From a virus: DNA of 30,380 nucleotides. Of this stretch, positions 6,161 through 30,380 are shown piece after piece (position 1 is the stretch's first letter; every line of letters starts with the position of its first letter). The stretch is taken from the IMG/VR virus record IMGVR_UViG_3300005336_000043, positions 1-30,380 of that record; one strand, written 5' to 3'. A model generated the notes under the pieces. The model had not been told where the DNA came from, ran no database searches, and worked only from the letters and a program-made list of their open reading frames with translations. A program made the position numbers and the translations under genes.

Positions 6161-6164
6161 TTAT

Positions 6165-7392: not shown

Positions 7393-7400
7393 AACGCTAT

Positions 7401-7607: not shown

Positions 7608-7632
7608 CACTTTCACAACTGAATAGCGAGTA

Positions 7633-7730: not shown

Positions 7731-7768
7731 ATTTAAGGCCAATGGCCTCATAAAACAAAACAAGTCCT

Positions 7769-9633: not shown

Positions 9634-9651
9634 TCGCTTAACTCACTAACT

Positions 9652-10177: not shown

Positions 10178-10197
10178 TTAACAACCAAACACTTACT

Positions 10198-10593: not shown

Positions 10594-10596
10594 CGT

Positions 10597-11409
10597 ATGC
10601 AGTTCAACTCAGAAACGAATGGGTTGGACCTATACAGCGATGCCCGCTACCTATTAGGCATAGATGAAACCTCAGACACCACCAGCTACCCCATCAAAGC
10701 CTTCACACGAAACGCCAACTTCGCACTGGATAAGTACAACTCCCTCGCGCTGAAGGCTGATGGCACGTGGAAGTTCAATGATACAAACCAATCCAATGAA
10801 CTCATTGATGTAACCCAGAACCTTGTAAACGGCACACAGAAATACGCCATACAAGCCACATGGCTCAAGATTGGCCGCGTGCGCATCAAAGACAGCAGCC
10901 GCAACTTCGTGACGCTCCTGCGGATGGATAGAAGTAAGCAGAGCGATAACCAGCTCAACGCTTCTTCCGGCACGCCCGTAGGCTACTTCGTTCTCGGTAA
11001 CTACCTCTACCTAGACAAAGCGCCAAATTACAATTCAACAGGAGGCCTAGAGGTACAGTTCCAGCAGGGCGCTTCCTACTTCACCTACACTGATACAACG
11101 AAGACGCCCGGCTGGGCCCCGCAATTCCATAGGCTAATCTCTCTTGAAGCTGCTCTGAATTATGCTCTTATTAATGGCATACCGACTCGCGCTGCCGCTC
11201 TGCAAGCCATGATTGGCATACCTCCAGACCTAGAAAATAACCAACCGGGCAGCGGCATGGCAAAGGAGTTCGTGGACTTCTACTCGCAGCGTGACAACGA
11301 CGCGCAGCCCACCGTCTCTTTCCGCAAGAGCGACTACGGAGAACTCTCTCTTGGCCAAAACCCCGGATCGATAAATCCTAAGGGCTTCCCTGACTACTAT
11401 GGCTACTAA
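10597..11409 (+). CDS. Head-tail adaptor-like protein
   Basis: A 270-residue protein after the capsid cluster. It starts 3 nt after the previous stop (TAGcgtATG). It has the mixed helical and beta organisation typical of podoviral adaptors: an N-terminal helical part (NFALDKYNSLALKADGTWKF), a central beta region (LKIGRVRIKDSSRNFVTLLR) and a C-terminal helical part (HRLISLEAALNYALINGIP). In podoviruses the gene between capsid and nozzle encodes the ring that joins the portal to the tail. Its product would sit below the portal. No diagnostic motif identifies it, so this is a position- and length-based call. Confidence 0.5.
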   Translation: MQFNSETNGLDLYSDARYLLGIDETSDTTSYPIKAFTRNANFALDKYNSLALKADGTWKFNDTNQSNELIDVTQNLVNGTQKYAIQATWLKIGRVRIKDSSRNFVTLLRMDRSKQSDNQLNASSGTPVGYFVLGNYLYLDKAPNYNSTGGLEVQFQQGASYFTYTDTTKTPGWAPQFHRLISLEAALNYALINGIPTRAAALQAMIGIPPDLENNQPGSGMAKEFVDFYSQRDNDAQPTVSFRKSDYGELSLGQNPGSINPKGFPDYYGY

Positions 11410-12919: not shown

Positions 12920-12921
12920 CT

Positions 12922-13428
12922 ATGGAAGACCTTACCCCAATATTTCCATTACAACCTTCCCGCATACAAGTCGCCGTACCAGTCCCATTCCAGGCACAGG
13001 CCCCCCAACAGCAGGTCGGTGGCTTCACCTCAACACCAGGCGGCCTCAACAACGGCTACGTCAGTTTCGACAGCCAGAACACGCAATTTCACATAACGGT
13101 AGGGGGCCTAAATCTGACGCTCTCTGGCGCTGATGTTATGACCTACGCCTCTACGATAGCACTCGACACCCAGAAAGCCGACCTCCACACCACGACCACC
13201 ACCAATGCAATCGGCAACGCTACCATAAACGCCTCTTCCGGTGGCACCGCAGGACAGAAGCTTTTCATAATCATCACCAACGACGCGACGGCAAATCGCA
13301 CCATCACTTTCGGCACGAACTTCAAGCCGAGCGGCACTTTGGTAGGCACGACCAGCAAGAGTGCGCTCGTGCAATTTATTAGTGACGGCACTTCGTTCTA
13401 TGAAGTGTCCCGCACAACCGGACTTTAA
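12922..13428 (+). CDS. Head or tail fibre protein with C-terminal beta domain
   Basis: The start is TAActATG, coupled to the previous stop. The N-terminal 60 residues are proline- and glutamine-rich (ending FQAQAPQQQVGGFTSTPGG), suiting attachment to the virion. The C-terminal 100 residues (from about residue 85) are a beta domain containing GGTAGQKLFIIITNDATANR and TITFGTNFKPSG, then SDGTSFYEVSRT; this pattern is common at the ends of phage fibre and head-fibre proteins. It probably trimerises. Which part of the particle carries it cannot be told from sequence. Confidence 0.6.
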   Translation: MEDLTPIFPLQPSRIQVAVPVPFQAQAPQQQVGGFTSTPGGLNNGYVSFDSQNTQFHITVGGLNLTLSGADVMTYASTIALDTQKADLHTTTTTNAIGNATINASSGGTAGQKLFIIITNDATANRTITFGTNFKPSGTLVGTTSKSALVQFISDGTSFYEVSRTTGL

Positions 13429-13431
13429 ATT

Positions 13432-15468
13432 ATGGACCCATCAATAGCAGCAGGAGGAAATCCGAACGCAACAGCCAACCCGACGCCCTTCACTGTCAAT
13501 CTCCCAGGCGCAGGCTCTCTTTTCATTGACGGCAGCGGCGGACCGCAGCCGCAGCTCTACTCGATAAACGGCAACAATCTTCAGTCCTTCAACATCAATC
13601 AATTCGCGCAGAACTATCTCTCACAAAACGGCATCGACTATAACGCGCTCAGCAGCGCTACTCCTGCCCAACTCGCCAGCAACAATGCCAATTACAATGC
13701 AAACCTTGCCGCGATGGCCGATAAAGCGCGAAGCCTCGGTGTTGACATAACCAGCCGCGCTAACAATTGGGATGAATCGGGCGCTGCCTACATCAACTTA
13801 TACGCGACCGGCCTCAACCTCCTCAAGAACCAGTACGGCGTGAATATCTCCTCACTTCCGCAATATAATATCGGTGACGTGCAATCCGCACTCACTCATA
13901 ACGGTGGCACAACCATAAGTACCATCGACCCCTCATTCTTTAGCACTCCGACAGGAGCCGCTTCATCGGTGACGCTCAATACTCAGCCTGCACTGCCTGC
14001 CTCACAGGCCACCATTGCGGCCGCTCAAGCCGCACAACAAACACAACTGGCAGGCGTGCAGGGAAAGAATGTAACGACGACAACTGACGCCAACGGCAAT
14101 ATCACCAGCTTCAGTGCAACCCCGCTTGGTTCCCAACCCCCGCCGAATACGTCGGTCTCTAATCCCATAAATCCGCCGACTTCAAACGGTTCCTACTCAC
14201 CCCCCTCAGGACAAGCCGCACAAACTATCTCCAATTATCTTACCGGCATCGGCGCAACACTTCAGAGCCAACAGGCACAGTATCAGCAGGCCAACCAGCA
14301 GCAAGCGCAGAACTACCAGAGCCAAATCGACGCGCTCAACCAACAGCAAAAGGAATTACAGCAGCTCTCCGATAATGGGATGCTCGGCGAAGATAACACG
14401 ATGCTCCAGGAGACTTCCCAGAAACAAGCAGCCCTTCAGCAAGAGCAGCAAGAATACCAGGACAACTACAACGCCAACCAGTCGCTCATAAACGAAATGG
14501 ATGGATTGCTCACGCAGGGCAATCAAATCATCGAGGACATGAAGAACACGACGGGCTTGGCTTCCATCATGAACCCGCGCATCTCGCAGACCATGACCGA
14601 CGTAAGCGCCCGTGCTGGCGTCATACAGGCGGTCTTGGCCGCGAGAAATAACCAGATAGGCAATGCCCAGAAGCAGCTTGCCAGTGCGACGGACGCAATC
14701 ACGAGCATCTACACCGACCAGATGAACTACTACAAATCGGTCGTCTCCTACTACGAGCAGCAGAAGCAAGATACCCAAGGCGAGATTGACAGCCTCAGCA
14801 AGGACCAGAAGACCTACATCGACAATCAAATCCAATCACTCAAAGATGCAGTCACGAACACACAAAACACCGCTAACATCATCCAGAAAGCGATGCTCGA
14901 CCCGAACACCGCACTCCTCTACGCCACAGCGGGCGTAACCCTCAATGATAGTCCTGCGCAGATACAGCAAAAGCTCGGCCTCGCCACTTACGCGCAGGAG
15001 CTTTCCACCCTCTCATCGAACATGGCTGCCAAAGGCTACTCTAGTAATCCCGTGCCAGGCGTCTCACCCGTCACGATGGTAGACAGCCAGGGCCAGCCAC
15101 ATCAGTTCTGGGCGGCAACGACGCCGGGAACGAAGACCGGGACGAGCCCGACATCGACGAACAGCCCATCAGTTCCTAGCGGCGGTACTATTACAAGCGG
15201 CAACCTTGTCGCGACACAAAATGATATTGACCAGGGCGCACAAGCACTCAAAGCCTCCGCATCACAAGGCGCAGAAGCCGACGGCAAGTACGCCGACCCG
15301 AACTTATATCTCCAGATGTACGAGCACTGGGTATCTCAAGGCGGCAAAGGCAGCGACTTCCTCAAGTACTATCCCTTCTCTACTTACATCAATCCTGCAA
15401 ATACGTGGCTCTCGCAGTCAATAAGCGACTTCAACAATCAAGGCTCAGGCGGCGCACAAACTCCGTAG
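13432..15468 (+). CDS. Large coiled-coil internal virion/ejection-type protein
   Basis: A 678-residue protein with an N-terminal region rich in Asn, Gly and Gln, then a long Gln-rich coiled coil between roughly residues 270 and 490 (QSQQAQYQQANQQQAQNYQS; KQAALQQEQQEYQDN; VSYYEQQKQDTQGEIDSLSK), and a Ser/Thr/Gly linker before a C-terminal helical domain with LYLQMYEHWVSQGGKGSDFL. Podoviruses encode such proteins between tail and fibre genes; they are packed in the head and ejected to form the conduit through the envelope. There is no enzymatic motif. The next gene starts 1 nt after its stop (TAGtATG). Confidence 0.55.
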   Translation: MDPSIAAGGNPNATANPTPFTVNLPGAGSLFIDGSGGPQPQLYSINGNNLQSFNINQFAQNYLSQNGIDYNALSSATPAQLASNNANYNANLAAMADKARSLGVDITSRANNWDESGAAYINLYATGLNLLKNQYGVNISSLPQYNIGDVQSALTHNGGTTISTIDPSFFSTPTGAASSVTLNTQPALPASQATIAAAQAAQQTQLAGVQGKNVTTTTDANGNITSFSATPLGSQPPPNTSVSNPINPPTSNGSYSPPSGQAAQTISNYLTGIGATLQSQQAQYQQANQQQAQNYQSQIDALNQQQKELQQLSDNGMLGEDNTMLQETSQKQAALQQEQQEYQDNYNANQSLINEMDGLLTQGNQIIEDMKNTTGLASIMNPRISQTMTDVSARAGVIQAVLAARNNQIGNAQKQLASATDAITSIYTDQMNYYKSVVSYYEQQKQDTQGEIDSLSKDQKTYIDNQIQSLKDAVTNTQNTANIIQKAMLDPNTALLYATAGVTLNDSPAQIQQKLGLATYAQELSTLSSNMAAKGYSSNPVPGVSPVTMVDSQGQPHQFWAATTPGTKTGTSPTSTNSPSVPSGGTITSGNLVATQNDIDQGAQALKASASQGAEADGKYADPNLYLQMYEHWVSQGGKGSDFLKYYPFSTYINPANTWLSQSISDFNNQGSGGAQTP

Positions 15469-15469
15469 T

Positions 15470-18400
15470 ATGGGACTTTGGGACAGCGTCATACCTACAG
15501 CTTCCTCACCAGAATTGCCTGGTCTTGGCGGCGGCGGCAACTTCGCCGCACCAAATCTTTCAACCCATACAACCGCACCGACTTCTAACTTGTGGGGCGA
15601 CCTTCTCGGCAATTCGACATCGATCCCTACCGCCAACCTATGGTCTACGATGGCTAACTCCACACCAGCCGTTGCTAATAACCCAACACCCCTCAGCCTT
15701 TACGACCAGGTCAAGACACCTTCTGTTGCTTCGCAAGCTGCCAGCTACGACCCCGTATCTTCCGCCGTCTCCACAGTCTCTAGTGCCTACAAGCAAAGTG
15801 CAGTTCCTGACATCCTCACCGGCCTCAGCACCGGCAACTGGCAACCATACCAGCAAAAGATTGCATCCAATGGTATAGACGCTACCAAACTAGCCAACCC
15901 CGATCCTGCTATCCATGGACCCGAAGTACAGAAACTCGCTAACCTCGTCCTCGGTGTCTCTGGTGGTGAAGCAACAACTGCTCTCAAGCTCGGCAATATG
16001 ACCGAGCCGGAAAGCAAACTCCTCATATCTTTCGCTGACCACATAAATGCCGGGCACAACGTCGGCGCTGAAGACTGGGAAACTATTAAACAGACCCTGA
16101 CCGACAATGGCTACACAGCGCCGAACACACAGAAGCAAGCAGCGCAGCTCATCACAGATGCGAAGAATAGTGCCGTAGCTGCGCAAGCCGCCAAAAACGA
16201 AGCAACCTTTAACGCTCAAACCGACAACTCACTCAGCAAATCAAAGCCAGTCAATGCGTCGCAAGTTTCTTTGCCGCCAAAACCCGTACAGCCCCGCCAA
16301 CCGAACGGCTGGTGGGACACCTTCAAGAAGGCATTCAGCGACCAACGTGGCTTCGTCAAGAACCCGCTCGCACAAGAAGAGCCAGTCCCAGCACCAGAAC
16401 CAAAAGCCCCATCACCAGAAGAACCCGCACCTGTATCATCTCCACAGGATACCACGAACAAAGTCGAATTGCCGATAACCGGCACCACACAAGCCGAGCG
16501 TGTCGACAGCACCATAGTCAACTCCGAGCGCATCAAGAACGAGATAAACATACGCGGCAAAGACGCTTTCAAGGCAGGCCAAAGCCTCTCTGCCAATGAC
16601 TTAAAGCTCGGCACCCAGGTCGAGCACGGCTCACCGCTCGATGAGATAACCGCACAAGCCGATAACCCGAAACAGCTTGCCACTTTCCTCACCAAACTCG
16701 CCGATTACTACGACTTTCGCTTGGCAGCAGACCGCGCTGCAGGCGGCAATACCCCGCGCGTGCCGAATTACATCCCGCATAACTGGGACTTGAGCGACCC
16801 AAAAGACTTGGCTCGCTTCAACGACCTCGCCAAGCAGAAAGGCTTGCAGGAGTACAAGGGCTACCGCGCACAACCGCGTGTCTTCAATTCTTACGCAGAA
16901 GGCGAAGCGCAAGGTTTCAAGCGCGCAAATCCTTCCATCCTCGAAGACTTACAGCATGACTACAACGCAGCCAGTACCGTCCTCAGCCGCCAGGCCTTGA
17001 AGCAAGGGCTCTACGAAGCCGCACCGGATAAGGTAAGCATGAGCGGCTACGGTCAGACTCCTGAAGGCAAACCCTTCGTCAACAGCAACATTCCCGGTTT
17101 AGAAGGCATCTCTTACGACAAATCCATCCACCAGCAGCTCAAAGGTTTCGAGCCACTTACGAACACCGACGTTCTCGACCAGGCCAAAGACAAAGGCTTC
17201 AATCCAACCGACCCTAAGAGCTACGGCATTCTCTGGCAGAGCATGAAGGATAACGGGATGCTCAACACTGTGAGCACGCTCTACGACCACGCCAACAGTA
17301 GCCTCAAGCACACCATCCTCAACTTCTCCGGCTTCCACTCTATAAACATCAGCGCCAACTACACCGGCGCTTCCATCTTTAACCCAATTAAAGGTATTCG
17401 TGGGCTTACCACCTCCCTTCCCTCTTTCTTCAGCGAGAAGGCGACGCAGGACATCATTGATGGTTTCAAGGCGAAGAAGATACCCGGCAAGAGCTACAGC
17501 GTCTTTGATGCAGGACTTCGCTCCGGTGTGAACATGGATAGGGGTCTGCCGCCGAGCACCATCCGCTCGAAAGTAAACCCTTTCAACGCGACCTCCCGCG
17601 CCATCTTCGACCGCGAACTCTACACTCTCAAGCTCAACCTCGTTGACCAGGCGTTCGGAAAAGGTGAGATAGACCCAGCCTCCGCAGCCGGACGAGCCAC
17701 GGCCAAAGAAATAAATCTCATCATGGGGGAGGTGAACACACGCACCATGAACATCAACCCCAATACTTCTAAATGGCTCTCCCGTGCTCTTCTTGCCCCA
17801 CAATTTACCGCATCAAAATACAAGTTGATAGGAGATGCGTTATCGAAGGGCGGCGATGCCGGTCATCTTGCACGCACAGCCGTCATCGGCAAATCACTTG
17901 CTATCGGCACACTCTCAACCCTCGGTACCCTCTTAGCCACGGGCAAATTCCCCAACCTCCACCAGATACTCCTTAATTACACCATCGCACCTTCTACACA
18001 GACCAATCTCACCAACCCGAAAGGCCAAAAACTCGACGTTACCTACCCACAGACATTCCTCACCGAACCAGCAAAGCCCCTTGGCGGTGCTCTCGATGCT
18101 ATCGGGATACAGAACCCCCTCGGCACAAAGAACGACCTCACGCACTACGGCGAAGCACGCCTTTCACCTGCACTCTCGACCGCAATCGCCGCCTATAACA
18201 ACCAGGACTTCTACGGCAACCCAATAGTCAATCCGAATGTCCCACAGTCCGCACTCTCACAGCGCATACAAAACTTAGGCAAAGGACAGCTTCCTATAGG
18301 CATCCAGTCCGCCGTTAACCAGGCGCAGGGAAAGCAGACAGGCGCGCAGACTGCTATCAACGTTGCAGGGCTCAACACAAAAACCTCATCCTCTGACCCG

Positions 18401-18847
18401 ACTGTACAGGCACGTAACACCGTCACAAGCGCCAAACAGGCCATAGCTGCCATCGCACCCGACGACCCGCAACGCCTCGAAAAGATGCAGGCGATATTCA
18501 ACAGTCTCCCCGCCGATTCCCGTAAATCTCTCGCCTATCAAGAACTCCTCGACGGCGTAAGCACCAAAGGCATCTATCAGTCAGACACCGAGCAAAAATA
18601 TTTCCAGGTGCAAGACCTGCTCTCCCAGGGAAAAACCGCCGAAGCTACTGCGATAACGGCCGCCATGACGCCGAAGGAGTACAGCACATACAAGGCCATA
18701 CGCACACGCCTCACTAATCAGACGCTTTTCCAGAAAGTCAAAGACCTCGTCTCGCAGGGAAACACCACAGCCGCTACGCAGCTCACCGCCTCAATGACCA
18801 AAGACCAGTACAAGTCCTATTTGACATGGAAGAAAAAGAATCCCTGA
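15470..18847 (+). CDS. Very large (1125-residue) polyvalent/ejection-type protein
   Basis: The largest gene in the window. The N-terminal third is low-complexity (Ser/Thr/Pro/Asn, acidic and proline-rich near residues 300-340). From about residue 420 there is a helical domain with RVPNYIPHNWDLSDPKD and a YRAQPRVFNSYAEGEAQGF segment, reminiscent of large polyvalent proteins of phages. A later conserved-looking block (STIRSKVNPFNATSRAIFDR, EINLIMGEVNTRTMNINPNT, LLAPQFTASKYKLIGDAL) is followed by a hydrophobic stretch (KSLAIGTLSTLGTLLATGK) that could insert in membrane. The C-terminus has two copies of a motif of the type FQ-V-DL-SQG-TAAT-T-SMT. It is probably ejected with the DNA. No enzyme is assigned. 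Confidence 0.55.
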   Translation: MGLWDSVIPTASSPELPGLGGGGNFAAPNLSTHTTAPTSNLWGDLLGNSTSIPTANLWSTMANSTPAVANNPTPLSLYDQVKTPSVASQAASYDPVSSAVSTVSSAYKQSAVPDILTGLSTGNWQPYQQKIASNGIDATKLANPDPAIHGPEVQKLANLVLGVSGGEATTALKLGNMTEPESKLLISFADHINAGHNVGAEDWETIKQTLTDNGYTAPNTQKQAAQLITDAKNSAVAAQAAKNEATFNAQTDNSLSKSKPVNASQVSLPPKPVQPRQPNGWWDTFKKAFSDQRGFVKNPLAQEEPVPAPEPKAPSPEEPAPVSSPQDTTNKVELPITGTTQAERVDSTIVNSERIKNEINIRGKDAFKAGQSLSANDLKLGTQVEHGSPLDEITAQADNPKQLATFLTKLADYYDFRLAADRAAGGNTPRVPNYIPHNWDLSDPKDLARFNDLAKQKGLQEYKGYRAQPRVFNSYAEGEAQGFKRANPSILEDLQHDYNAASTVLSRQALKQGLYEAAPDKVSMSGYGQTPEGKPFVNSNIPGLEGISYDKSIHQQLKGFEPLTNTDVLDQAKDKGFNPTDPKSYGILWQSMKDNGMLNTVSTLYDHANSSLKHTILNFSGFHSINISANYTGASIFNPIKGIRGLTTSLPSFFSEKATQDIIDGFKAKKIPGKSYSVFDAGLRSGVNMDRGLPPSTIRSKVNPFNATSRAIFDRELYTLKLNLVDQAFGKGEIDPASAAGRATAKEINLIMGEVNTRTMNINPNTSKWLSRALLAPQFTASKYKLIGDALSKGGDAGHLARTAVIGKSLAIGTLSTLGTLLATGKFPNLHQILLNYTIAPSTQTNLTNPKGQKLDVTYPQTFLTEPAKPLGGALDAIGIQNPLGTKNDLTHYGEARLSPALSTAIAAYNNQDFYGNPIVNPNVPQSALSQRIQNLGKGQLPIGIQSAVNQAQGKQTGAQTAINVAGLNTKTSSSDPTVQARNTVTSAKQAIAAIAPDDPQRLEKMQAIFNSLPADSRKSLAYQELLDGVSTKGIYQSDTEQKYFQVQDLLSQGKTAEATAITAAMTPKEYSTYKAIRTRLTNQTLFQKVKDLVSQGNTTAATQLTASMTKDQYKSYLTWKKKNP

Positions 18848-18853
18848 TATAAT
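18845..18853 (+). promoter_or_regulatory. Consensus extended -10 (TGaTATAAT)
   Basis: TGA-TATAAT is a perfect extended -10 overlapping the end of the large gene; TGA at 18845-18847 is also its stop codon. The predicted start lies about 10 nt before the ATG at 18871. A TTGACA occurs at 18821-18826, but its spacing of 21 nt is too long for a classical promoter. Confidence 0.6.
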
Positions 18854-18870
18854 TAATCTAATCTTCACCT

Positions 18871-19722
18871 ATGTACGTACCCGTCAATCCTTCCGAGAGC
18901 TATCCGATAAACCGCGTCCTCGAAGACACGACCGATAGCGGTACGAACTATGTGCAATGCAAGGTCTACAACGGAAAGACGCGCGCGCTGTTGCAGACCG
19001 TCAATCTAACTGACAACGGCAACCGTTGGTTCTCAGGCCTCATCACCATTCCCCAGGACAACGCCTTCTCTAATGGCACATGGCTCTTAGTTACCACTAC
19101 CGTCTACACCGACAGCGGCTATACCACTGTCAACACCAACTACGCACAGACCTCAGAACAATGGTTGGTGCAAACACGCTTCGACTATCGCTTCCTTCCA
19201 CAAGGCCTTGGCCCTGAATGGGGCGAAAAGCTCACCACTACCTTCAAGGAACAAGTCGCAGCACTGAAACCTAATGACCCGCCGCCCGCCGTTGACCACA
19301 CACCCGCACTCTTCGGCATCAACTCACGTCTCAACGCCATTGAAGGCGCAATACGCGCTATCGTCATTCCTGAGCCAGAGAAACCTGAGAAGGTAAATCT
19401 CCAGGGCTTACAGAGCGCCCTCGACAATCTCACTAAGCTTGTCGCCTCCTTGCCCAAATTCGAGAAGACCGACCAGAGCGCCATCCTCAATTCCCTCTCC
19501 AATCTCCATGGCGCTATACAAAATCACCACGCTATCAGCGCCGACGCTCATACCAAGACACAGAAGGCAATCAAAGAAAGCGTCGTCCCCATCATGGAGC
19601 AGACCGCGCATCAACAGGTTATTGACGGCATCAAGAACGGCTCAATAGATATTTCCCTCTCAGGCAAGAATGCCGAGAAGCAAAAGGGGCTTAAAGGATT
19701 AGCTAAAAAATACGGCCTATGA
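18871..19722 (+). CDS. Virion appendage protein with beta-sandwich head and coiled-coil tail
   Basis: The N-terminal 120 residues are beta-rich with alternating Thr/Tyr/Asn (TDSGTNYVQCKVYNGKTRAL, SNGTWLLVTTTVYTDSGYTT), followed by a helical and coiled-coil part (INSRLNAIEGAIRAIV; LQSALDNLTKLVASLPKF; SNLHGAIQNHHAISADAHTK) and a basic C-terminus. This architecture suits a tail spike or connector rather than an enzyme. It has its own strong -10 box and overlaps the next gene by 4 nt (ATGA). Homologues are not identifiable by eye. Confidence 0.5.
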   Translation: MYVPVNPSESYPINRVLEDTTDSGTNYVQCKVYNGKTRALLQTVNLTDNGNRWFSGLITIPQDNAFSNGTWLLVTTTVYTDSGYTTVNTNYAQTSEQWLVQTRFDYRFLPQGLGPEWGEKLTTTFKEQVAALKPNDPPPAVDHTPALFGINSRLNAIEGAIRAIVIPEPEKPEKVNLQGLQSALDNLTKLVASLPKFEKTDQSAILNSLSNLHGAIQNHHAISADAHTKTQKAIKESVVPIMEQTAHQQVIDGIKNGSIDISLSGKNAEKQKGLKGLAKKYGL

Positions 19723-21185
19723 AAAAATGGCTACTAGTCTCATTGCTATTATTCCCCTCGCTCGCATTAGCTCAAGGCGTCCCATCACAAGATCAATTCA
19801 CTTCTACTACTTCACCCTCTCTTTCCATAACCCAGAAAGTCTATGGCAAGACTATACGTCTCACCGGACTTGAAAATCTCGGCTGCATTGGTACCGATAG
19901 CAATGGCATCCTACAAGCAGGCACATGCTCTGGTGGTGGCGGAGGCGGCACAGGCGTCGCCACCACATCGATCCTATCGATATGGCCTATCATACGCACA
20001 CTATCGACTGCTGCACTCACCTTCAGCTTCGGCGGTATATCAACCTCGACCAATCCTACAATAGGCCAGATACCTTACTGGACTGGGGTTAATACCATTG
20101 GCAGCGTCGCAACTGGCACCGTATCCGCTGGCTCTAGCGCCATAACCGTAACTGCCGGTCGCTCAGTAATAGGCGGCGCGCTCTCCATCGACTGCACCGC
20201 TGCGAGCGGCTCTCAAAATGGCTGTCTATCATCAACTGACTGGACGACGTTCAACAACAAAATCTCTTTCGTATGGCCATTCACGCCGACCACCTACGGG
20301 ACCCTCCAAGTCTCCGCTACTTCAACCGCCTTTGAAGATTTCGCTGGCCTCATATCTGCCACCTCAACCATCGGCACACTTACAGCTTCATCGAGCATAA
20401 CCAACCAGGGCGTCAAGAGTGCTCTCGTGCTCAATAGTGCGGCAGGACTTGAAGGAGCATATGGCGGCGCTTCTGCCTGCTCGGCCAACAACTTCGTGAC
20501 GACGATAAGCGCAATAGGCGGCACAACCTGCGGCACAGCTACAATTTCCGGCGTTTCTCTCGGCGGCACACTCGCCGCTCTCAGCGCAACCGATGCGACA
20601 CTTACCTTCTCCGGCAGCTACACCGGAGCAGCAGCACGAACCGTAGGACTTAATCTTGCGAATGCCAACTCATGGTCCGCAAAGCAGACGTTCGTCAGTG
20701 CATCCTCAACAAATCTATCTGCCTCCGGTTCCTTCTTCGCTCCATCCGCAGCATCAACCACCCTCAACGCATCTGGCGCTATCGCAATCGACACAACAGT
20801 CGCGTCATCGGGCATTTCCTACTTCGACGGCACCGCTCAAAGACTTGCCCCGAATATCATGCCTGTCTCATTCATGTGGAATACGACTACTCCATCGACT
20901 TCCGCCACGGACACGGGAATGATTATCAATGGAGCACGCCCCATAAAGCTCGATAACGCAGCATGCAGTGTCGTCGGTGGCACGGCAACAATCGCCGTCG
21001 GCAACGGTGTATCGACCTCGACCTACATCCAAGCCAAAGCGCTCTCTACCGTACCCGTGCCAGTGACTCTTTCCTCGAATAACTCCTTTACGCAGTTCGC
21101 CCCTATCTTCATCGCTATCGGCACCTACTCTGCAAACACGGTGACCACCGTCTCTTGTGGATACGGCGAGGAATACACGGGCTGA
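19719..21185 (+). CDS. Fibre-like protein with a Sec signal peptide
   Basis: The N-terminus (MKKWLLVSLLLFPSLALAQG) is a textbook signal peptide with an ALA-QG cleavage site. The rest is a fibre-like Gly/Ser/Thr/Ala-rich sequence: a GGGGGGTGVATTSIL hinge, LSSTDWTTFNNK and WPFTPTTYGTLQVSATST, repeated ATST motifs, and ACSANNFVTTISAIGGTTCG, motifs I associate with fibre proteins of Parcubacteria and their viruses. A tail fibre with a cleavable signal would leave the cytoplasm, which is unexpected for a normal lytic phage. Alternatives are a host-surface adhesin made from the phage genome, or a fibre assembled outside the membrane. It is coupled to the previous gene by ATGA. Confidence 0.65.
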   Translation: MKKWLLVSLLLFPSLALAQGVPSQDQFTSTTSPSLSITQKVYGKTIRLTGLENLGCIGTDSNGILQAGTCSGGGGGGTGVATTSILSIWPIIRTLSTAALTFSFGGISTSTNPTIGQIPYWTGVNTIGSVATGTVSAGSSAITVTAGRSVIGGALSIDCTAASGSQNGCLSSTDWTTFNNKISFVWPFTPTTYGTLQVSATSTAFEDFAGLISATSTIGTLTASSSITNQGVKSALVLNSAAGLEGAYGGASACSANNFVTTISAIGGTTCGTATISGVSLGGTLAALSATDATLTFSGSYTGAAARTVGLNLANANSWSAKQTFVSASSTNLSASGSFFAPSAASTTLNASGAIAIDTTVASSGISYFDGTAQRLAPNIMPVSFMWNTTTPSTSATDTGMIINGARPIKLDNAACSVVGGTATIAVGNGVSTSTYIQAKALSTVPVPVTLSSNNSFTQFAPIFIAIGTYSANTVTTVSCGYGEEYTG

Positions 21186-25289: not shown

Positions 25290-25318
25290 AGCCGCTTCTT
25301 TATGAGGCGGCTCTTTTC
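25290..25318 (+). terminator. Intrinsic terminator
   Basis: AGCCGC (25290-25295) pairs with GCGGCT (25307-25312), followed by cTTTTc. It closes the transcription unit of the cysteine-rich gene. Confidence 0.6.
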
Positions 25319-25329
25319 ATATAAAAAAA

Positions 25330-25345
25330 GCCCAGATGCGCTCTG
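25330..25345 (+). repeat. Direct repeat copy 1 flanking an SD-led gene
   Basis: GCCCAGATGCGCTCTG, preceded by an A-run, matches GCCCAGATACGCTCTG at 25870-25885 except at one position. The A-run lies before both copies. The pair brackets the gene at 25444-25788. A further inverted pair AGATGCG/CGCATCT (25334-25340, 25357-25363) surrounds copy 1. Confidence 0.6.
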
Positions 25346-25443
25346 CCGCGCAACGTCGCATCTTGCGATAACAATCACACCGACTCATTTCGGCCACTTT
25401 CGACTGATTCGATTCCTCCATAAATTGATATAGGAGGGAAGCG

Positions 25444-25788
25444 ATGGATAGACGAGAGTTCATGATACACGCATCTATGGCACCACTCGCACCGATGGTC
25501 GATACTAAAGCGTCGGAAGCATTTTGGATTAGACACGCAATTGAAGTGTTTCAGTCAACTGCGGCCATGTGTCAGACCGTCTTTTACAGTCCCGAGAGAA
25601 TGACACAGGAGCAGATTGTGAAAGCTGTCTACCTCTGCGAAGCAGCCGAAAGACTATCGAGATCGATGAACTATGCCATTTTTGCAAGTATTAGTGATAA
25701 AGACGCGCAAAATGCTATCAGAAAAGCATTGTCCCAATACGAAAGATCGCTTTATAGCGAATTACATGCCTTGAAAAACAAGTCGTGA
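25444..25788 (+). CDS. Hypothetical protein with a Tat-like N-terminus, SD-led
   Basis: The start is set by AGGAGG 6 nt upstream. The 114-residue protein begins MDRREFMIHASMAPLAPMVD, which looks like a short twin-arginine (Tat-type) signal (RR-E-F) but with a weak hydrophobic core. The remainder is helical with two or three cysteines (MCQTVFYSP, VYLCEAAERLSRSMNY). No family recognised. It lies between two near-identical direct repeats, which hints at a mobile or recently inserted cassette. Its codon and base usage look more A/T-rich than the late genes. Confidence 0.6.
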   Translation: MDRREFMIHASMAPLAPMVDTKASEAFWIRHAIEVFQSTAAMCQTVFYSPERMTQEQIVKAVYLCEAAERLSRSMNYAIFASISDKDAQNAIRKALSQYERSLYSELHALKNKS

Positions 25789-25869
25789 CACACTTCCTTT
25801 TGCGCTGCTTTACATCCTTGAATAAACAGCTCTCGTGGCGATACGTCTCAGTTTTAGTTTTTAAAAAGT

Positions 25870-25885
25870 GCCCAGATACGCTCTG
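25870..25885 (+). repeat. Direct repeat copy 2
   Basis: GCCCAGATACGCTCTG, with a preceding aaaaag, is the partner of copy 1 at 25330-25345. Here GCCC and a downstream GGGC can also form a small hairpin with CAGA/TCTG. Confidence 0.6.
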
Positions 25886-25897
25886 AGCGGGCGGCAA

Positions 25898-26104
25898 TCA
25901 CTTCCATAGCGGGATTGAGATAAATTCTCGACGCTCCTCACCACTTTCGTCCACAATCCACAATGCTAGCCAGCAGCGACCGCCGCAACTAGATACACAT
26001 TGATCTGGATGATTTTGGACGAACTCAAGGCTAATACGCCCAACTGTGAAGATATGGAGTGTTGCATGGTAATCGTCACACTCTACCCGTTCATACAGAG
26101 CCAC
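25898..26104 (-). CDS. Small hypothetical protein, 68 residues, GTG start with SD
   Basis: The GTG at 26104 has GGAGG 7 nt upstream, a real Shine-Dalgarno. The product is MALYERVECDDYHATLHIFT with two more Cys-containing segments (DQCVSSCGGRCWLALWIVDE) and a basic/acidic C-terminus. The Cys pattern might bind a metal. It lies at the 3' end of the reverse operon, next to direct repeat copy 2. Function unknown. Confidence 0.55.
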   Translation of the reverse strand: MALYERVECDDYHATLHIFTVGRISLEFVQNHPDQCVSSCGGRCWLALWIVDESGEERREFISIPLWK

Positions 26105-26124
26105 TATTTTTCCTCCATCTCTCT

Positions 26125-26153
26125 AGCGTCAGCCGATTTATTCAGCGGACGCT
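26125..26153 (-). terminator. Intergenic hairpin after the 26170-26382 gene
   Basis: AGCGTC (26125-26130) pairs with GACGCT (26148-26153), with CCG/CGG supporting pairs inside. On the - strand it lies 16 nt after the stop of the 26170 gene. There is no long U-tract, so it may be a weak terminator or an mRNA-stabilising stem. Confidence 0.35.
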
Positions 26154-26169
26154 TGGAGGGATGGAGCAA

Positions 26170-26382
26170 TTACTCCAGAAACTCTTCATCAATCTGTGCT
26201 GGTATCACGCACCATTCTATCCAAGCACCGTTCTTAATCCACTTGCGCTCTATTACCCAACCGCACTCTATATCAGGCGTAATGCGTAGCATAGCGAAGA
26301 TGGTAGGGCCGAACATCTTATCGATAACTACCCTTTGCGTCCCAATCTCGATTGTTCTTGTCTCACGTTCTTCGTTTTCCAT
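26170..26382 (-). CDS. Small hypothetical protein, 70 residues
   Basis: I use the ATG at 26382 (MENEERETRTIEIGTQRVVI), just after a junction element GTCGCA...TGCGACA. The protein looks beta-rich in the middle (VIDKMFGPTIFAMLRITP) and ends with WIKNGAWIEWCVIPAQID, typical of a small folded phage protein. No family named. It is the penultimate gene of the reverse operon. Confidence 0.55.
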   Translation of the reverse strand: MENEERETRTIEIGTQRVVIDKMFGPTIFAMLRITPDIECGWVIERKWIKNGAWIEWCVIPAQIDEEFLE

Positions 26383-26392
26383 AATGTTTGTA

Positions 26393-26418
26393 TGTCGCAG
26401 AGTACTTACTTTTGCGAC
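26393..26418 (-). repeat. Junction element copy (GTCGCA...TGCGACA)
   Basis: On the - strand, GTCGCA (26418-26413) and TGCGAC (26399-26394) form a perfect 6-bp inverted repeat with 13 nt between. It starts inside the last codons of the upstream gene and ends 11 nt before the next ATG. Related copies lie at 27311-27335, 27885-27910 and 28028-28054. Confidence 0.55.
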
Positions 26419-26744
26419 GTTTCGCCGTCTAACACCTGCTGCCAAAATTCTTCCGTATTGCCACCCAACAGAACAACCTCCAGAAAACTATGCGGTGTAA
26501 GTAACCAATGTCGTTCCCCAGACTTCTTGCCTCTGTCTCGGGCGTATTCATCCATTGCATCAAAGACATCTAACGGCCACCCCAGCGCTCTTCCAAGAGC
26601 CTGCCAGAAAACAGGGTCGAAACCGATGCGCTGCCATTGAACGTCTTCTTCATTGCCATTCTCTACTGCATACAAAGCAAACTCAGCTATCTCCGGCTCC
26701 CAACCATTTTTCAAGGCCAACACAACTGCTTTTTTCGGTATCAT
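26406..26744 (-). CDS. Conserved-looking phage protein, 112 residues
   Basis: The protein contains FDPVFWQALGRALGWPLDVF, followed by a helical C-terminal part with HSFLEVVLLGGNTEEFWQQV. I recognise this FWQALGKALGW-type pattern from phage hypothetical proteins, but cannot give a name or function. It starts in the TACGACGTATG context shared with the neighbouring 27106 gene. The stop region overlaps the junction element. Confidence 0.6.
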   Translation of the reverse strand: MIPKKAVVLALKNGWEPEIAEFALYAVENGNEEDVQWQRIGFDPVFWQALGRALGWPLDVFDAMDEYARDRGKKSGERHWLLTPHSFLEVVLLGGNTEEFWQQVLDGETSQK

Positions 26745-26761
26745 ACGTCGTAAATCGTCAG

Positions 26762-27106
26762 CTAGTAATTGCCCCGCCCTTTGTACAAGCGGATGACATC
26801 GTTCTTTGCCTCTATAATCTCACGTAGAAGCCGAATGTGCTCCTCACACTGCAGTTCTTCGATGCTCTTTTCCATTGGAAATTCTACAGAATCCCATCGA
26901 TCCAAGTTCTTTTTATTTGCTGCCTTACTTGCGTTTTTTGGTATCTCCCCGAGACTTACCCCGAGCTCATAACGCTCTTGCGCACGCTCCTCCAGCAGTC
27001 TTACGGCTGCGTAGAACTCCTGATCCGGAGGGCTCTTGCCGTCAACCATCACCTCCTCAAGGCCGTGGATGCATTCTTCAATAATGTCCTTGTATTCTTT
27101 GTTCAT
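26762..27106 (-). CDS. Hypothetical helical protein, 114 residues
   Basis: The start is ATG 27106 (MNKEYKDIIEECIHGLEEVM), preferred over a longer upstream frame because of the TACGACGTATG context it shares with the gene below. The sequence is helical and charged, with DQEFYAAVRLLEERAQERYE and a C-terminal coiled coil (EELQCEEHIRLLREIIEAKN). No domain known. It belongs to the reverse operon of small genes. Confidence 0.55.
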   Translation of the reverse strand: MNKEYKDIIEECIHGLEEVMVDGKSPPDQEFYAAVRLLEERAQERYELGVSLGEIPKNASKAANKKNLDRWDSVEFPMEKSIEELQCEEHIRLLREIIEAKNDVIRLYKGRGNY

Positions 27107-27138
27107 ACGTCGTACAACGGTCGCTTTCGCGGCATGAC

Positions 27139-27303
27139 TTATAAATTCTCGTCTTTCCAAGCTTCCCACCTGGACTGGTAATACCAGAGGATGGCGCGCC
27201 ACCCTCTGATGCGATGCCGCACGTATTCCACTAAACCCACTTCTTCTTCATAGGCATGCCAGTTACCTGGCCACCCTACTTGCTTGTAACCGCGTATCTT
27301 CAT
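27139..27303 (-). CDS. Small Trp/Arg-rich protein, 54 residues
   Basis: MKIRGYKQVGWPGNWHAYEE and a second half with RIRGWRAILWYYQSRWEAWK. It is unusually rich in tryptophan and arginine and may bind nucleic acid or membrane. It starts 7 nt after a junction element (27311-27335) with the AACTATG context, and ends 32 nt before the next start. Function unknown. Confidence 0.55.
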   Translation of the reverse strand: MKIRGYKQVGWPGNWHAYEEEVGLVEYVRHRIRGWRAILWYYQSRWEAWKDENL

Positions 27304-27310
27304 AGTTGTT

Positions 27311-27335
27311 TGTCAGAAAATGCTAGTTTTGCGAC
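27311..27335 (-). repeat. Junction element copy (GTCGCAAAA...TGACA)
   Basis: On the - strand GTCGCAAAA is followed after 10 nt by CTGACA, then AAACAACTATG. It begins 0 nt after the TAG stop of the upstream gene. It is one of four related intercistronic elements. Confidence 0.55.
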
Positions 27336-27512
27336 CTACGCGATGCCGTGAAATATCTCCATCGGAGTTTCAAGCATCTCATTTTCGACCACGATGCGGA
27401 GGACACCGCCTTCAACCTCGACGTCGGCTTTCACCTCCCTGCTGTGCGTAATGAAGTCGTCGAACGTCGGTTCAATAGCGTCGTCTATCATCCTTTCAAT
27501 AATGATTTTCAT
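27336..27512 (-). CDS. Small beta-rich hypothetical protein, 58 residues
   Basis: The ATG overlaps the stop of the FtsK-gamma gene (ATGA), so it is translated with it. The protein begins MKIIIERMIDDAIEPTFDDF and continues with alternating hydrophobic strands (VKADVEVEGGVLRIVVENEM). It is acidic. No family. Being coupled to the FtsK-gamma-like gene, it might act with it. Confidence 0.55.
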   Translation of the reverse strand: MKIIIERMIDDAIEPTFDDFITHSREVKADVEVEGGVLRIVVENEMLETPMEIFHGIA

Positions 27513-27883
27513 AACACCTTTCTTGCTTTGCCCTTCTCAGGGCCACTAATTACACCCGCTTCTTCCAGTTGGTCTAGGAGAGCGGAGGCGCGGGCGTAGG
27601 GCATATGCATGTTCGGTAACTCTATCAGCTTGCGCGGCGTGATGCTGTCGCCAATCTCGTATTCCTTCCGTATCGCGGCCACGGCTTTGTCGAAGAGTGG
27701 GTCGCGCTGTGGCCTGTCAACCGGCAATGCTTGGGCCTGAGTTTGAGGCACAGTAATCTCTACGTCTTCGCCCCAGATGAGCTTTGCATTGACTAGGTTC
27801 TCAGGCGAGTAATGCAATCCAAGCAGAATGACCTTTCCGGCTTCCGTATCTGCTACCTCGATTGAGTGAAATCTCATTTTCAT
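27509..27883 (-). CDS. Stand-alone FtsK gamma-like winged-helix protein
   Basis: ATG 27883 is chosen (a TTG at 27892 is in frame). The C-terminal 64 residues (61-124) fit the FtsK/SpoIIIE gamma domain: DPLFDKAVAAIRKEYEIG, then PYARASALLDQLEEAGVISG and GKARKVL. This winged helix reads KOPS-type sequences and activates XerD in cells. Here it is not attached to a translocase; the N-terminal 60 residues form a beta-rich unit (VILLGLHYSPENLVNAKLIW). It may be a phage transcription regulator, a DNA-end or replication factor, or help Xer-mediated resolution. It has a junction element upstream and is overlapped by the next gene (ATGA). Confidence 0.8.
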   Translation of the reverse strand: MKMRFHSIEVADTEAGKVILLGLHYSPENLVNAKLIWGEDVEITVPQTQAQALPVDRPQRDPLFDKAVAAIRKEYEIGDSITPRKLIELPNMHMPYARASALLDQLEEAGVISGPEKGKARKVL

Positions 27884-27884
27884 A

Positions 27885-27910
27885 TGTCTCAAAACACAGA
27901 TTGTGCGTCA
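27885..27910 (-). repeat. Junction element copy (TGACGCACAA...TGAGACA)
   Basis: On the - strand TGACGCACAA includes the TGA stop of the zinc-finger gene and is followed after 9 nt by TGAGACA, 1 nt before the ATG at 27883. The 10-mer TGACGCACAA is identical to that at 28054-28045. Confidence 0.55.
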
Positions 27911-28003
27911 CTTCGAATGAAGGCGTCTAATGTGGTTCTTCAAGTTCGCAATCTTCTTCCCGCAATGCGGGCATCCATTTCTTTGTTTTATCTTCTTTAC
28001 CAT
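27908..28003 (-). CDS. 31-residue C2H2 zinc-finger micro-protein
   Basis: MVKKIKQRNGCPHCGKKIAN continues with LKNHIRRLHSK. Cys11 and Cys14 (CPHC) with His24 and His29 (HIRRLH) give C-x2-C-x9-H-x4-H, a single C2H2 finger that fills the whole protein, flanked by lysines and arginines. This suits a small DNA-binding regulator. It is preceded by a junction element (28028-28054) and its TGA is part of the next one. It is too short for most gene callers, but the metal-ligand pattern makes it convincing. Confidence 0.75.
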   Translation of the reverse strand: MVKKIKQRNGCPHCGKKIANLKNHIRRLHSK

Positions 28004-28027
28004 AATGATTTTGTTAGTCTGTCAATC

Positions 28028-28054
28028 TGTCGCAAATAACAGTCTTGTGCGTCA
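28028..28054 (-). repeat. Junction element copy (TGACGCACAA...TGCGACA)
   Basis: On the - strand TGACGCACAA (28054-28045) starts with the TGA stop of the membrane-protein gene and is followed after 10 nt by TGCGACA (28034-28028). The zinc-finger ATG lies 24 nt further on. Confidence 0.55.
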
Positions 28055-28237
28055 GACCGCCATCACCCTACTAATCATCTCCCTGCTATAACGATACGTC
28101 AAACACCCTGTCTTCAAGGCCAGAAGCCAGAACACACACAATGCAATCAGCGCCGCACACACCTCCATCCCGACGCCGCAAAAGGCGAGGATGTCGTCAA
28201 CGTAGTCGGGAAGGTGGAAAAAGATTTCAGACCACAT
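28052..28237 (-). CDS. Small membrane protein, 61 residues
   Basis: The protein has a hydrophobic stretch (VCAALIALCVFWLLALKTGC, about residues 26-45) between an N-terminal acidic segment (SEIFFHLPDYVDD) and a basic tail (YRYSREMISR). It is one likely transmembrane helix, oriented N-out if the basic end stays in. The start (MWSEIFF) overlaps the SSB stop by 11 nt. Function unknown. Confidence 0.55.
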   Translation of the reverse strand: MWSEIFFHLPDYVDDILAFCGVGMEVCAALIALCVFWLLALKTGCLTYRYSREMISRVMAV

Positions 28238-28781
28238 AGACTAGTTGAACGGCCGTGTCCTCGCGCGTAATTTCGCTCTCAGCGCCTCCAAACGGGTCGC
28301 CCCCGTCGAATAGAGCATTCATGTCTATGCGGAGACTCCTAAGCGCATTTTTGGCCTCCTGAGGCACATCTTTGTGCGGGCTTGGCGTCACCGTATACTC
28401 AGTATCGAGCTTCTCACCCTTCTTCGTAATCGTTATGTCGTAGTCCTGCGGCGGACCCCAATCGTCATTTGTAACCAGCTCAGTCATCTGGTTCTGAATG
28501 CTTACCTGCGTAATCTCCAGGATTTGGATGCGATTGACTTTGTAATTCCAAACTGGGAACGCCCAAAAGTGCTTTACCTTGTCGCCATCGCGCAAATCTG
28601 TCGGCGTCTCCGTCGGCTGCTCTTTCAAACGCACAGGCTTTCCCTGCACATTCCAGTATTGGAAGCCGAGTATCGGCGCGCCCATCACTCTGAACTTGTT
28701 AGCACCTTTCTCGAATTTGAAGTAATTGCCCGCACTCTTCGGAACCTCATATCCATGCGGTAACCAATTTTCTTTTTGCAT
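28227..28781 (-). CDS. Phage single-stranded DNA-binding protein-like
   Basis: The 184-residue sequence matches a phage SSB-like pattern: YFKFEKGANKFRVMGAPILG near the N-terminus, HFWAFPVWNYKVNRIQILEI, then VTNDDWGPPQDYDITITKKG and a C-terminal Gly/Asp segment DGGDPFGGAE. The aromatic-rich beta core (FWAFPVWNY) would hold ssDNA. The C-terminus is mildly acidic but not the DDDIPF of cellular SSBs. It starts with TAAtgtATG, coupled to the previous gene. It is the strongest replication or recombination gene in the operon. The exact family name is uncertain. Confidence 0.7.
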   Translation of the reverse strand: MQKENWLPHGYEVPKSAGNYFKFEKGANKFRVMGAPILGFQYWNVQGKPVRLKEQPTETPTDLRDGDKVKHFWAFPVWNYKVNRIQILEITQVSIQNQMTELVTNDDWGPPQDYDITITKKGEKLDTEYTVTPSPHKDVPQEAKNALRSLRIDMNALFDGGDPFGGAESEITREDTAVQLVYVV

Positions 28782-28784
28782 ACA

Positions 28785-28991
28785 TTATAAATTTCTTTCC
28801 TCTATCGACTGACCGACATCAGCCGCTGTGTAATCTCCATCTCCACTAATTTGCTGTGCCTTCCTTGACCAATAATCCCCAAACTCTTTCATCTTCTCCA
28901 ACGCATCCTCCAATTCATACGCATCGAACTTCCCTTTTTCCTCTGCCGTCAATTCATACCACTGGTTCTTAGTCCCGTCTGACATATCCAT
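28785..28991 (-). CDS. Hypothetical acidic protein, 68 residues
   Basis: ATG candidates are 29012, 28991 and 28985; I use 28991 (MDMSDGTKNQWYELTAEEKG) to limit overlap with the upstream gene. The product is acidic and helical (DAYELEDALEKMKEFGDYWS). It is directly upstream of, and coupled to, the SSB-like gene (stop-3 nt-start). No domain known; a partner of the SSB is possible. Confidence 0.55.
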   Translation of the reverse strand: MDMSDGTKNQWYELTAEEKGKFDAYELEDALEKMKEFGDYWSRKAQQISGDGDYTAADVGQSIEERNL

Positions 28992-29151
28992 TCTTGGCAG
29001 AATACCCGCCATCTATCCCTGCTAATCGTCTCCTCTCCGCCTCGACCCTGGCTGCCATGTACGCTTTTACTGCACTCGCTACTCCCGCAAATGAGAGCGC
29101 CGGATTGTTCTCTCGGAAGCGGTGCCTCTCGCAATTGCATTGCATCGGCAT
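28969..29151 (-). CDS. Hypothetical small basic protein, 60 residues
   Basis: It starts 1 nt after the previous stop on the - strand (TAGtATG), a coupled junction. The sequence MPMQCNCERHRFRENNPALS and a helix (SAVKAYMAARVEAERRRLAG) look genuine; a CNC...H pair at the N-terminus may bind metal. It overlaps the next gene slightly. Function unknown. The alternative reading frame (28949-29140) is less protein-like. Confidence 0.5.
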   Translation of the reverse strand: MPMQCNCERHRFRENNPALSFAGVASAVKAYMAARVEAERRRLAGIDGGYSAKNGYVRRD

Positions 29152-29152
29152 A

Positions 29153-29773
29153 CTAGTTTTCTAAACTTCTAATAACCTCTACCCGTGTCGCCATCTCCTG
29201 CGTCGCAGCCGACCAATTCCACAGCGCGCCGGGCAATTTGAATATCGCATCTTTCGCCAGCGATTTGGCACGGCCACAATCAAGCGCGAGCAAAACCGCA
29301 TCGAGATTGCTCAACGATTTTCCATAGAGCGTCTGATACTGGCTTTGCACCGTCGAGATTTTGTACGACATGCAACCGTAGCTTACCTTGTCCTTGCGCG
29401 ATAGACTTCCTGCTTTGTTGTCATCGACATACGCGGGAAGCGCACTTCCGTCGCCGTTCTCTTTGGCTGCAAGCTCATCGACGAGCGCATCTTTGAGCGC
29501 ATCCACGCGATTGCCTACGATGACATCCGCAATGGCGCTACTGTCTACGCCATTACTCGCATACGCTTGCGGCAAGACACTATCTGCAATCGCATCGACG
29601 AGCTTGCCGCTCATATCTTCCGCATACGTCCCTATCGTAAAGTACGACCCTACAAACCCGAACACTACGAGGAGAGCTATTGCTAACTTCCTCGCCCCAG
29701 ACTTCTTAAAACGCTTCGTCTTCCTATCTCGCGGCTGAGGTTTCACATCCTCACCCATGTACGTAATCTTCAT
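29153..29773 (-). CDS. Membrane-anchored protein with a lysozyme-like C-terminal domain (tentative)
   Basis: 206 residues: a basic cytoplasmic N-terminus (QPRDRKTKRFKKSGARK), one membrane helix (LAIALLVVFGFVGSYFTIGT, about residues 30-50), a flexible Ala/Asp/Val-rich linker, and a C-terminal domain with KVSYGCMSYKISTVQSQYQT and DAVLLALDCGRAKSLAKDAI. The SYGxxxxK pattern plus downstream helices recalls lysozyme-fold proteins that remodel peptidoglycan, but I see no sure catalytic Glu. It may be a wall-remodelling or attachment factor. It is the second gene of the reverse operon, after the large structured intergenic region, with AACTATG. Confidence 0.45.
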   Translation of the reverse strand: MKITYMGEDVKPQPRDRKTKRFKKSGARKLAIALLVVFGFVGSYFTIGTYAEDMSGKLVDAIADSVLPQAYASNGVDSSAIADVIVGNRVDALKDALVDELAAKENGDGSALPAYVDDNKAGSLSRKDKVSYGCMSYKISTVQSQYQTLYGKSLSNLDAVLLALDCGRAKSLAKDAIFKLPGALWNWSAATQEMATRVEVIRSLEN

Positions 29774-30157
29774 AGTTGAATTTTTACGTGGTCTGACGTG
29801 CCACTAAACCGAAAGAGATATTAATAACGGCTTTTGCTTCAGCACCTCTGACCCCTAGTCGTACTAAGCCCTGCACTCATGACCCTGTGCAATCGCAACG
29901 ACTAGGAATTAGAGATGCTGATGTCAGATGTGGATGGGGAAAAACCTAGAAGCCGCGCGTCTAGTACGGCTGCCGCAATAATAGGGTTCACTTTCCCCCA
30001 TCCACATCTGACGAAGAACAATAGAGACGAGCTGTGCTTTTCAGCCTACGCACCACTCTCCTGTCCAGCTTTCGTGCTCATGGCCTAATGACCGGTGAGG
30101 TAGTCGCGCTCTGTCTCTGAGGCTTAATACTAAACGAACGTTCGTTTTCTTGCAACC
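29774..30157. other. 384-bp gene-free locus with four consecutive large hairpins (ncRNA, origin or control region)
   Basis: No credible gene lies here. Hairpin A (29839-29921): TCAGCA/TGCTGA, CTCT/AGAG, CCTAGTCGT/ACGACTAGG (9 bp) and TGCAC/GTGCA are nested. Hairpin B (29923-30012): a 17-bp perfect arm GTCAGATGTGGATGGGG with its exact complement, then AACCT/AGGGTT, and inner AGCCG/CGGCT. Hairpin C (30027-30075): ACG-AGCTG with CAGCT-tt-CGT. Hairpin D (30103-30167): GTCGCGCT/AGCGCGAC and TGAGG/CCTCA around the palindrome at 30132-30147. Such a dense series suggests a large structured RNA or a replication/partition locus. The strand is unresolved. Confidence 0.55.
30132..30147. promoter_or_regulatory. 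16-bp perfect palindrome, probable operator
   Basis: AAACGAAC followed by GTTCGTTT is a perfect inverted repeat without spacer. It resembles the half-site GAAC/GTTC used by LexA/SOS-type operators, but with no central spacer, so that match is weak. It is located in the loop of hairpin D, between the 30322 gene stop and the rest of the locus. Confidence 0.5.
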
Positions 30158-30322
30158 TCAGCGCGACTGGGTTTTCCCCACTTTCCTATTTTTCCTTGAT
30201 TTAGAGCCCTTTTTTGTCTTTCCCAATTTTAGATTACGAAAGTATTCCGACGGATTGTCAATCTTCCGCTTACGAACTTCCCACGACCGCTTTCCTAATT
30301 CAACCGCCGCTTGATTTGTCAT
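30158..30322 (-). CDS. Small basic DNA-binding-like protein, 54 residues
   Basis: MTNQAAVELGKRSWEVRKRK followed by a Lys/Arg/Gly/Ser-rich C-terminus ending KVGKTQSR. ATG 30322 lies 6 nt after a TGcTATGCT extended -10, so it is probably leaderless; a GTG at 30340 is in frame. The GKRSWEVRKRK-like start is common in small phage-encoded basic proteins. Its 3' end overlaps the right arm of hairpin D. It may regulate the operon or bind the adjoining locus. Confidence 0.55.
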   Translation of the reverse strand: MTNQAAVELGKRSWEVRKRKIDNPSEYFRNLKLGKTKKGSKSRKNRKVGKTQSR

Positions 30323-30328
30323 GTCCAC

Positions 30329-30337
30329 AGCATAGCA
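30329..30337 (-). promoter_or_regulatory. Extended -10 (TGcTATGCT) for the first gene of the reverse operon
   Basis: On the - strand TGC-TATGCT (TATGCT at 30334-30329) is followed by GTGGAC and ATG at 30322 (6-nt gap). A TGGAAA at 30356-30351 has a 16-nt spacing and four of six matches to a -35. Confidence 0.55.
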
Positions 30338-30380
30338 CACATACGCTCGTTTTCCATGGTAGCGTTGTGAATAGCAGAGG

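Follow-up and report, generated by a model that had tools for sequence, protein, structure and literature searches.

The locus studied here is a structured, non-coding segment at positions 29774-30157 of a 30,380-base IMG/VR fragment from a soil phage, which is the whole stretch of DNA analysed and is hereafter called the window. The segment was examined for folding, rank within the genome and codon signal, and it lies upstream of a leftward gene cluster encoding a 206-aa membrane-type protein, an SSB-like protein and an FtsK-gamma-like wHTH protein. Through a search for protein relatives of the 206-aa gene, another IMG/VR contig of this phage was found (44,370 bases), which is identical to the window over the window's full length except at one base, and whose ends overlap by 127 bases; this contig is therefore the complete circular phage genome, of 44,243 bp. 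Window positions 25318-30380 correspond to bases 1-5063 of the complete genome, and the hairpin segment to bases 4457-4840.

The 206-aa gene (29153-29773, minus strand), downstream of the hairpins, encodes a protein with a basic and hydrophobic N-terminal segment, for which a family match was sought and not found. To the same leftward cluster belong the SSB-like gene (28227-28781, minus strand), matching PHROG 1607/1192, single-strand DNA binding protein, with E-values of 9e-10 and 6e-6, and the gene for a 127-aa protein (27509-27892, minus strand) with a winged helix of the FtsK gamma type (PF09397, E 3e-9, above the gathering score). This winged helix, of the KOPS-binding type, is present without the FtsK motor; it prompted a search of the phage for dif sites and KOPS clusters, none of which were found. 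A Xer/dif site was also rejected for the locus, as the best matches to a 28-bp dif-like site stood at the level of shuffled sequence and none within the locus rose above background.

On the other side of the hairpins is the C-terminal part of an 83-aa ORF (54 aa from ATG; 30158-30380, minus strand), rich in Lys/Arg and running beyond the window end. The initial annotation had placed the locus between two reverse-strand genes, which is credible for the 206-aa gene; the right-hand ORF appears doubtful as a gene, given a codon score that is not coding-like and the absence of relatives. If it is not a gene, about 640 nt of non-coding DNA separate divergent genes here. Rightward genes begin right past this ORF, at window-equivalent position 30417, and the locus sits just left of the switch. 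The structural block, including terminase and major head protein, reads rightward, as does a second block with a 214-aa secreted-type protein, a tyrosine integrase, an AlpA-like regulator and a HerA-like ATPase.

The phage is temperate, as indicated by the integrase (complete genome 7036-8115), the AlpA-like regulator and a tRNA-Arg(CCT) attP. The likely attP is a 40-nt copy of the 5' half of tRNA-Arg(CCT) beside the integrase (complete genome 6869-6908), identical to the same tRNA in a Pseudomonadota genome. Distant relatives of the terminase are located in alpha- and gammaproteobacterial contigs, and together with the match of the putative attP this suggests a proteobacterial host.

Hairpins, palindrome and promoter-like pair

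Folded as RNA, the whole segment had z-scores of -6.1 (plus strand) and -7.8 (minus strand), and none of 100 shuffles was as stable; folded as DNA it reached z -5.3, and the RNA-parameter folding is thus somewhat stronger (-7.8 vs -5.3). A coding sequence was rejected, since codon use gave no coding signal in any of the six frames of 29774-30157. The initial annotation had described four large hairpins here, termed A to D. Three are significant and not four, because candidate hairpin C (about 30016-30066, minus strand) is indistinguishable from chance, with z -0.6 and 46 of 200 shuffles folding equally well.

Hairpin A (29839-29921, minus strand) has the 83 nt described, with 24-nt arms that are 83% complementary; on the minus strand it forms 11 + 12 bp interrupted by a single 1x1 mismatch, plus a 6-bp inner hairpin, with an MFE of -43.2 kcal/mol (4 flanking nt included) and z-scores of -6.8 (minus) and -7.7 (plus). 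Hairpin B (29923-30012, minus strand), also borne out at 90 nt, has 21-nt arms that are 95% complementary and include the 17-bp perfect run, with an MFE of -48.6 kcal/mol (2 flanking nt included) and z-scores of -6.9 (minus) and -7.8 (plus). For neither hairpin was any of 200 shuffles as good. Moreover, the inverted repeat of B scores 18, against a maximum of 16 in about 0.7 Mb of related phage and prophage DNA, and when 200-nt windows from both strands of the whole phage genome were ranked by folding, the two strands over A and B came first and second of 886. One nucleotide separates A from B, the pair spanning 174 nt, and on the minus strand both are long, nearly unbroken duplexes of about 21-26 bp. 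Parts of B are complementary to stretches near A and D, giving weaker alternative pairings.

Hairpin D (30102-30168, minus strand) is likewise significant (z -4.0), at 67 nt instead of the 65 nt first given, with a 9-bp outer and a 6-bp inner stem under a palindrome; its 5' arm overlaps the stop codon of the 83-aa ORF. Altogether, the structured core consists of simple hairpins over about 330-400 nt. Most hairpins of this phage genome have the better energy on the minus strand, and the plus strand of the complete genome is C-rich throughout, so that the minus-strand advantage is no independent evidence. The strand preference of G-U pairs as a sign of RNA was dropped, being confounded by the genome-wide skew.

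The 16-bp perfect palindrome already noted within hairpin D, AAACGAACGTTCGTTT, is confirmed at 30132-30147, and no other copy with up to 3 mismatches occurs in the genome. It occupies the spacer of a weak leftward promoter-like pair, TTGCAA (30155-30150) and TAGTAT (30132-30127), separated by 17 nt; the pair matches the promoter at 8 of 12 positions, and leftward promoter-like pairs of this kind occur at chance frequency.

Relatives of the locus and other hairpins

At the gathering threshold, Rfam gave 0 matches in the window and in complete-genome bases 1-20000, which contain the whole locus, in agreement with the earlier view that no known family is recognisable. A relaxed threshold returned sub-threshold models, mostly of plant or animal miRNA precursors (E 0.26 and 0.46), which are chance matches. 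The DNA of the locus had no match in phage and plasmid records, and a single low-complexity match in one bacterial genome fell inside the neighbouring 214-aa gene. Protein relatives of the 206-aa, SSB-like, integrase, HerA-like, 54-aa ORF and FtsK-gamma-like products were restricted to the same phage. Hairpin B is single copy, and the pattern of its 17-bp arm formed no other hairpin in IMG/VR, where one other contig held a single unpaired occurrence. A covariance model of B plus A found no match in the rest of the genome and distant relatives, nor in 289 genomes of the class of the attB-carrying bacterium; these negatives are weak, since the model was built on one sequence. In the collections searched by DNA, neighbouring protein, pattern and covariance model, a homologous locus was not found, and the hairpin locus is an orphan, a real structure with no family.

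Long-stem hairpins of 45-200 nt are also present in about ten other gaps of this genome. At one threshold, 14 inverted repeats were counted in the phage, against 1-4 in shuffled genomes of the same composition. In complete-genome coordinates, long-armed hairpins fill gaps at 5884-5976, 6161-6304, 8655-8847 (with 8682-8804 nested), 9780-9905, 15604-15648, 18584-18739 and 43850-43938, and structured stretches occur at 707-906 and 26507-26706. The A/B locus is therefore the strongest case of a genome-wide habit. Comparable hairpins also occupy gaps ahead of rightward genes, so the feature is not specific to the leftward operon, and comparison with shuffles revealed no convincing sequence kinship among the genome's own hairpins. 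It is conceivable, and in our judgement distinctly unlikely, that these roughly ten intergenic RNAs, sharing a fold principle and unrelated in sequence, constitute an undescribed RNA-based system of gene-expression control with this locus as its strongest member; such a system might act, for example, by anti-termination or RNase III-dependent timing.

Intrinsic terminators with U-tracts occur, for example, at complete-genome 5978-6003, 8524-8553 and 13342-13385. The first of them closes the stretch 5884-6003, where an extended -10-like motif, TGGTATCAT, is followed by two long stems (5895-5947 and 5913-5975) that overlap as a pseudoknot or are mutually exclusive; this stretch looks like a small RNA or attenuator. 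The motif GAAGGCGGGG of the perfect terminator hairpin 8524-8553 reappears as a 16-bp perfect outer stem (8655-8670 / 8832-8847) surrounding the branched hairpin 8682-8804. Within the head-gene block, window positions 7227-7768 (542 nt) are strongly structured (z about -5.5) and hold just one reverse ORF that looks non-coding (mean codon score -0.40), which makes it doubtful that our locus is the biggest gene-free stretch, as had been stated; a terminator-like hairpin lies there ahead of another 206-aa gene (7769-8389), which precedes the major head gene. Elsewhere, two adjacent DUF6197 paralogues span complete-genome 18146-19208, and the 152 nt at 17990-18141, with 75% identity to part of the first, are possibly a decayed third copy.

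Among the terminase (TerL) relatives, at about 30% identity, we observed long-stem, three-way-branched hairpins ending in a U-tract, some of them directly ahead of a replication-type gene; from contig to contig, their stems show compensatory changes. As terminators or attenuators they are built differently from A and B; heading gene blocks and bearing compensatory changes, they indicate that operons in this broad phage group can begin with folded RNA. One type is Y-shaped, with a long stem and an end of 7-8 U (L033:5344-5427, L034:9-93 and L049:5410-5492), shows at least 2 compensatory double changes in the main stem between L033 and L049, and stands directly before a replication-type gene (MKIKNWTKFQHF...) in L033 and L034 and before a different gene in L049. 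A second branched, long-stem type with a U-tract, of about 116-125 nt (L021:5122-5245, L028:5288-5411 and L026:3322-3448), occupies the gap that separates leftward from rightward genes, with one stem pair altered on both sides in L026. Neither type had an Rfam match.

A proposed leader RNA and its alternatives

We tentatively favour, with somewhat less than even confidence, the reading that the segment is transcribed into a strongly folded RNA, which is either the 5' leader of the leftward operon or an intercistronic stretch of it, and which functions in RNA processing or anti-termination. The hairpins themselves, where they lie and the direction of the genes are observed; the downstream genes read leftward, which makes the minus strand the natural transcript, and from this we infer leftward transcription, with the A and B duplexes acting on the transcript. 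Such a transcript would be the leader of the 206-aa, SSB-like and FtsK-gamma-like cluster, or an intercistronic RNA before it, and would bear B and then A back to back, followed after about 66 nt by the start codon of the 206-aa gene. Bacterial RNase III cuts double-stranded RNA of about two turns, and long duplexes like A and B have a size typical of its substrates; on the minus strand both reach about two turns, and their cleavage is putative. Given this duplex size and a layout resembling put elements, we propose processing and stability, or cis anti-termination. A and B would preferably be RNase III-type processing or stability elements, and as a second choice a put-like folded RNA would help the polymerase through downstream terminators. 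A repressor acting on the leader promoter may have the D palindrome as its operator.

A site working at the DNA level, either a replication origin or a site for protein binding or single-strand folding, is a possible but not probable explanation, and the same holds for its proposed working, in which an initiator would recognise cruciform or hairpin DNA, after which the SSB from the neighbouring gene would coat it. The inverted repeats are strong on either strand and as DNA, an SSB-like gene is found in the adjoining cluster, the locus is near the leftward/rightward gene switch and, because no polymerase or primase was recognised among the phage proteins scanned, host-dependent initiation at some site is required. 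However, the extremes of detrended GC skew, by which an origin had been proposed to be tested, are at 9.8 kb and 27.8 kb of the complete genome, away from the locus at 4.5-4.8 kb; furthermore, the locus has no exact DnaA box, near-boxes no denser than elsewhere, no multi-copy iterons and no AT-rich unwinding tract. With boxes, iterons, AT-rich element and skew switch all absent at the locus, an origin of the DnaA or iteron type is unsupported; a phage-specific origin of another type is possible. It is unlikely that the region is an operator or immunity region in which the D palindrome is a control site and the leader resembles the antisense elements of P4 CI and P1 C4, and equally so that the folded leader would then be an element of RNA-based immunity or attenuation. 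The temperate lifestyle, a palindrome filling the promoter-like spacer and the ability of parts of B to pair near A and D would fit such a region, although the genome lacks a second operator copy, Rfam (C4 included) gave no match, the alternative pairings fall well short of the A and B stems in strength, and neither A nor B is followed by a U-tract on either strand.

The size of B (90 bp with 21-bp terminal inverted repeats) and the long-armed elements of 45-200 bp in about ten other gaps recall MITE-like remains, that is, small non-autonomous mobile elements leaving terminal inverted repeats. This origin is nonetheless highly unlikely: every element is single copy with unrelated arms, the B arm is nowhere else a hairpin in IMG/VR, and inspection of the flanks disclosed no target-site duplications, so that a repeated mobile element is disfavoured. 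Least probable of the explanations weighed here is an oversized but ordinary transcription terminator, or several, between gene blocks. True U-tract intrinsic terminators do occur elsewhere in this genome, and branched long-stem terminators in its distant relatives; yet the sole terminator-like call at the locus overlaps the chance-level C, and the intrinsic terminator reading fails because A, B and D lack a following U-tract on both strands. The initial judgement that the structure exceeds what an ordinary terminator or promoter would need is upheld.

Comparison with known phage RNAs

Put-type anti-terminators suppress termination in cis via the zinc-binding domain of the RNA polymerase beta' subunit. 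In HK022, putL and putR each form two adjacent stem-loops near the start of an early operon, and a cis action on the emerging transcript has been proposed for them; these RNAs are about 70 nt long, their stems are bulged and indented, and the two operons have similar put sequences (PMC9378689). Hairpins A and B are similarly adjacent stem-loops, one nucleotide apart, and their early-leader position would be comparable. In contrast to put, the A+B pair covers 174 nt and its stems are almost perfect; the rightward leader of this phage yielded no comparable pair.

Processing hairpins of the T7 type, cut by RNase III in polycistronic phage RNAs, are long duplexes between or ahead of early cistrons. 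The present locus also has long duplex hairpins ahead of cistrons, but it shows no sign of cleavage or of the T7 site features and has two longer duplexes in tandem. The immunity RNAs of P4 CI and P1 C4 are structured leaders with internal complementarities in the early operon of a temperate element; the locus is likewise structured, internally complementary and ahead of an operon in a temperate phage, whereas it matches neither in sequence nor in Rfam, and neither short antisense seed pairs nor a terminator were identified in it. GOLLD and ROOL RNAs, which the initial annotation had raised as possible explanations, share with the locus the character of structured non-coding DNA in a phage genome. 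They are far longer than this segment, whose core of simple hairpins is unmatched by Rfam in the window and in complete-genome bases 1-20000, and both are therefore unsupported.

Provided that it is transcribed and functional, the segment would be an unclassified addition to the structured RNA leaders of temperate phages, of which few are known, and it comes from a lineage with close relatives known from metagenomes only. It would then also offer a compact system for testing how RNA controls early genes in phages. If it instead acts at the DNA level, the locus would mark a control or replication site of an uncultured phage.
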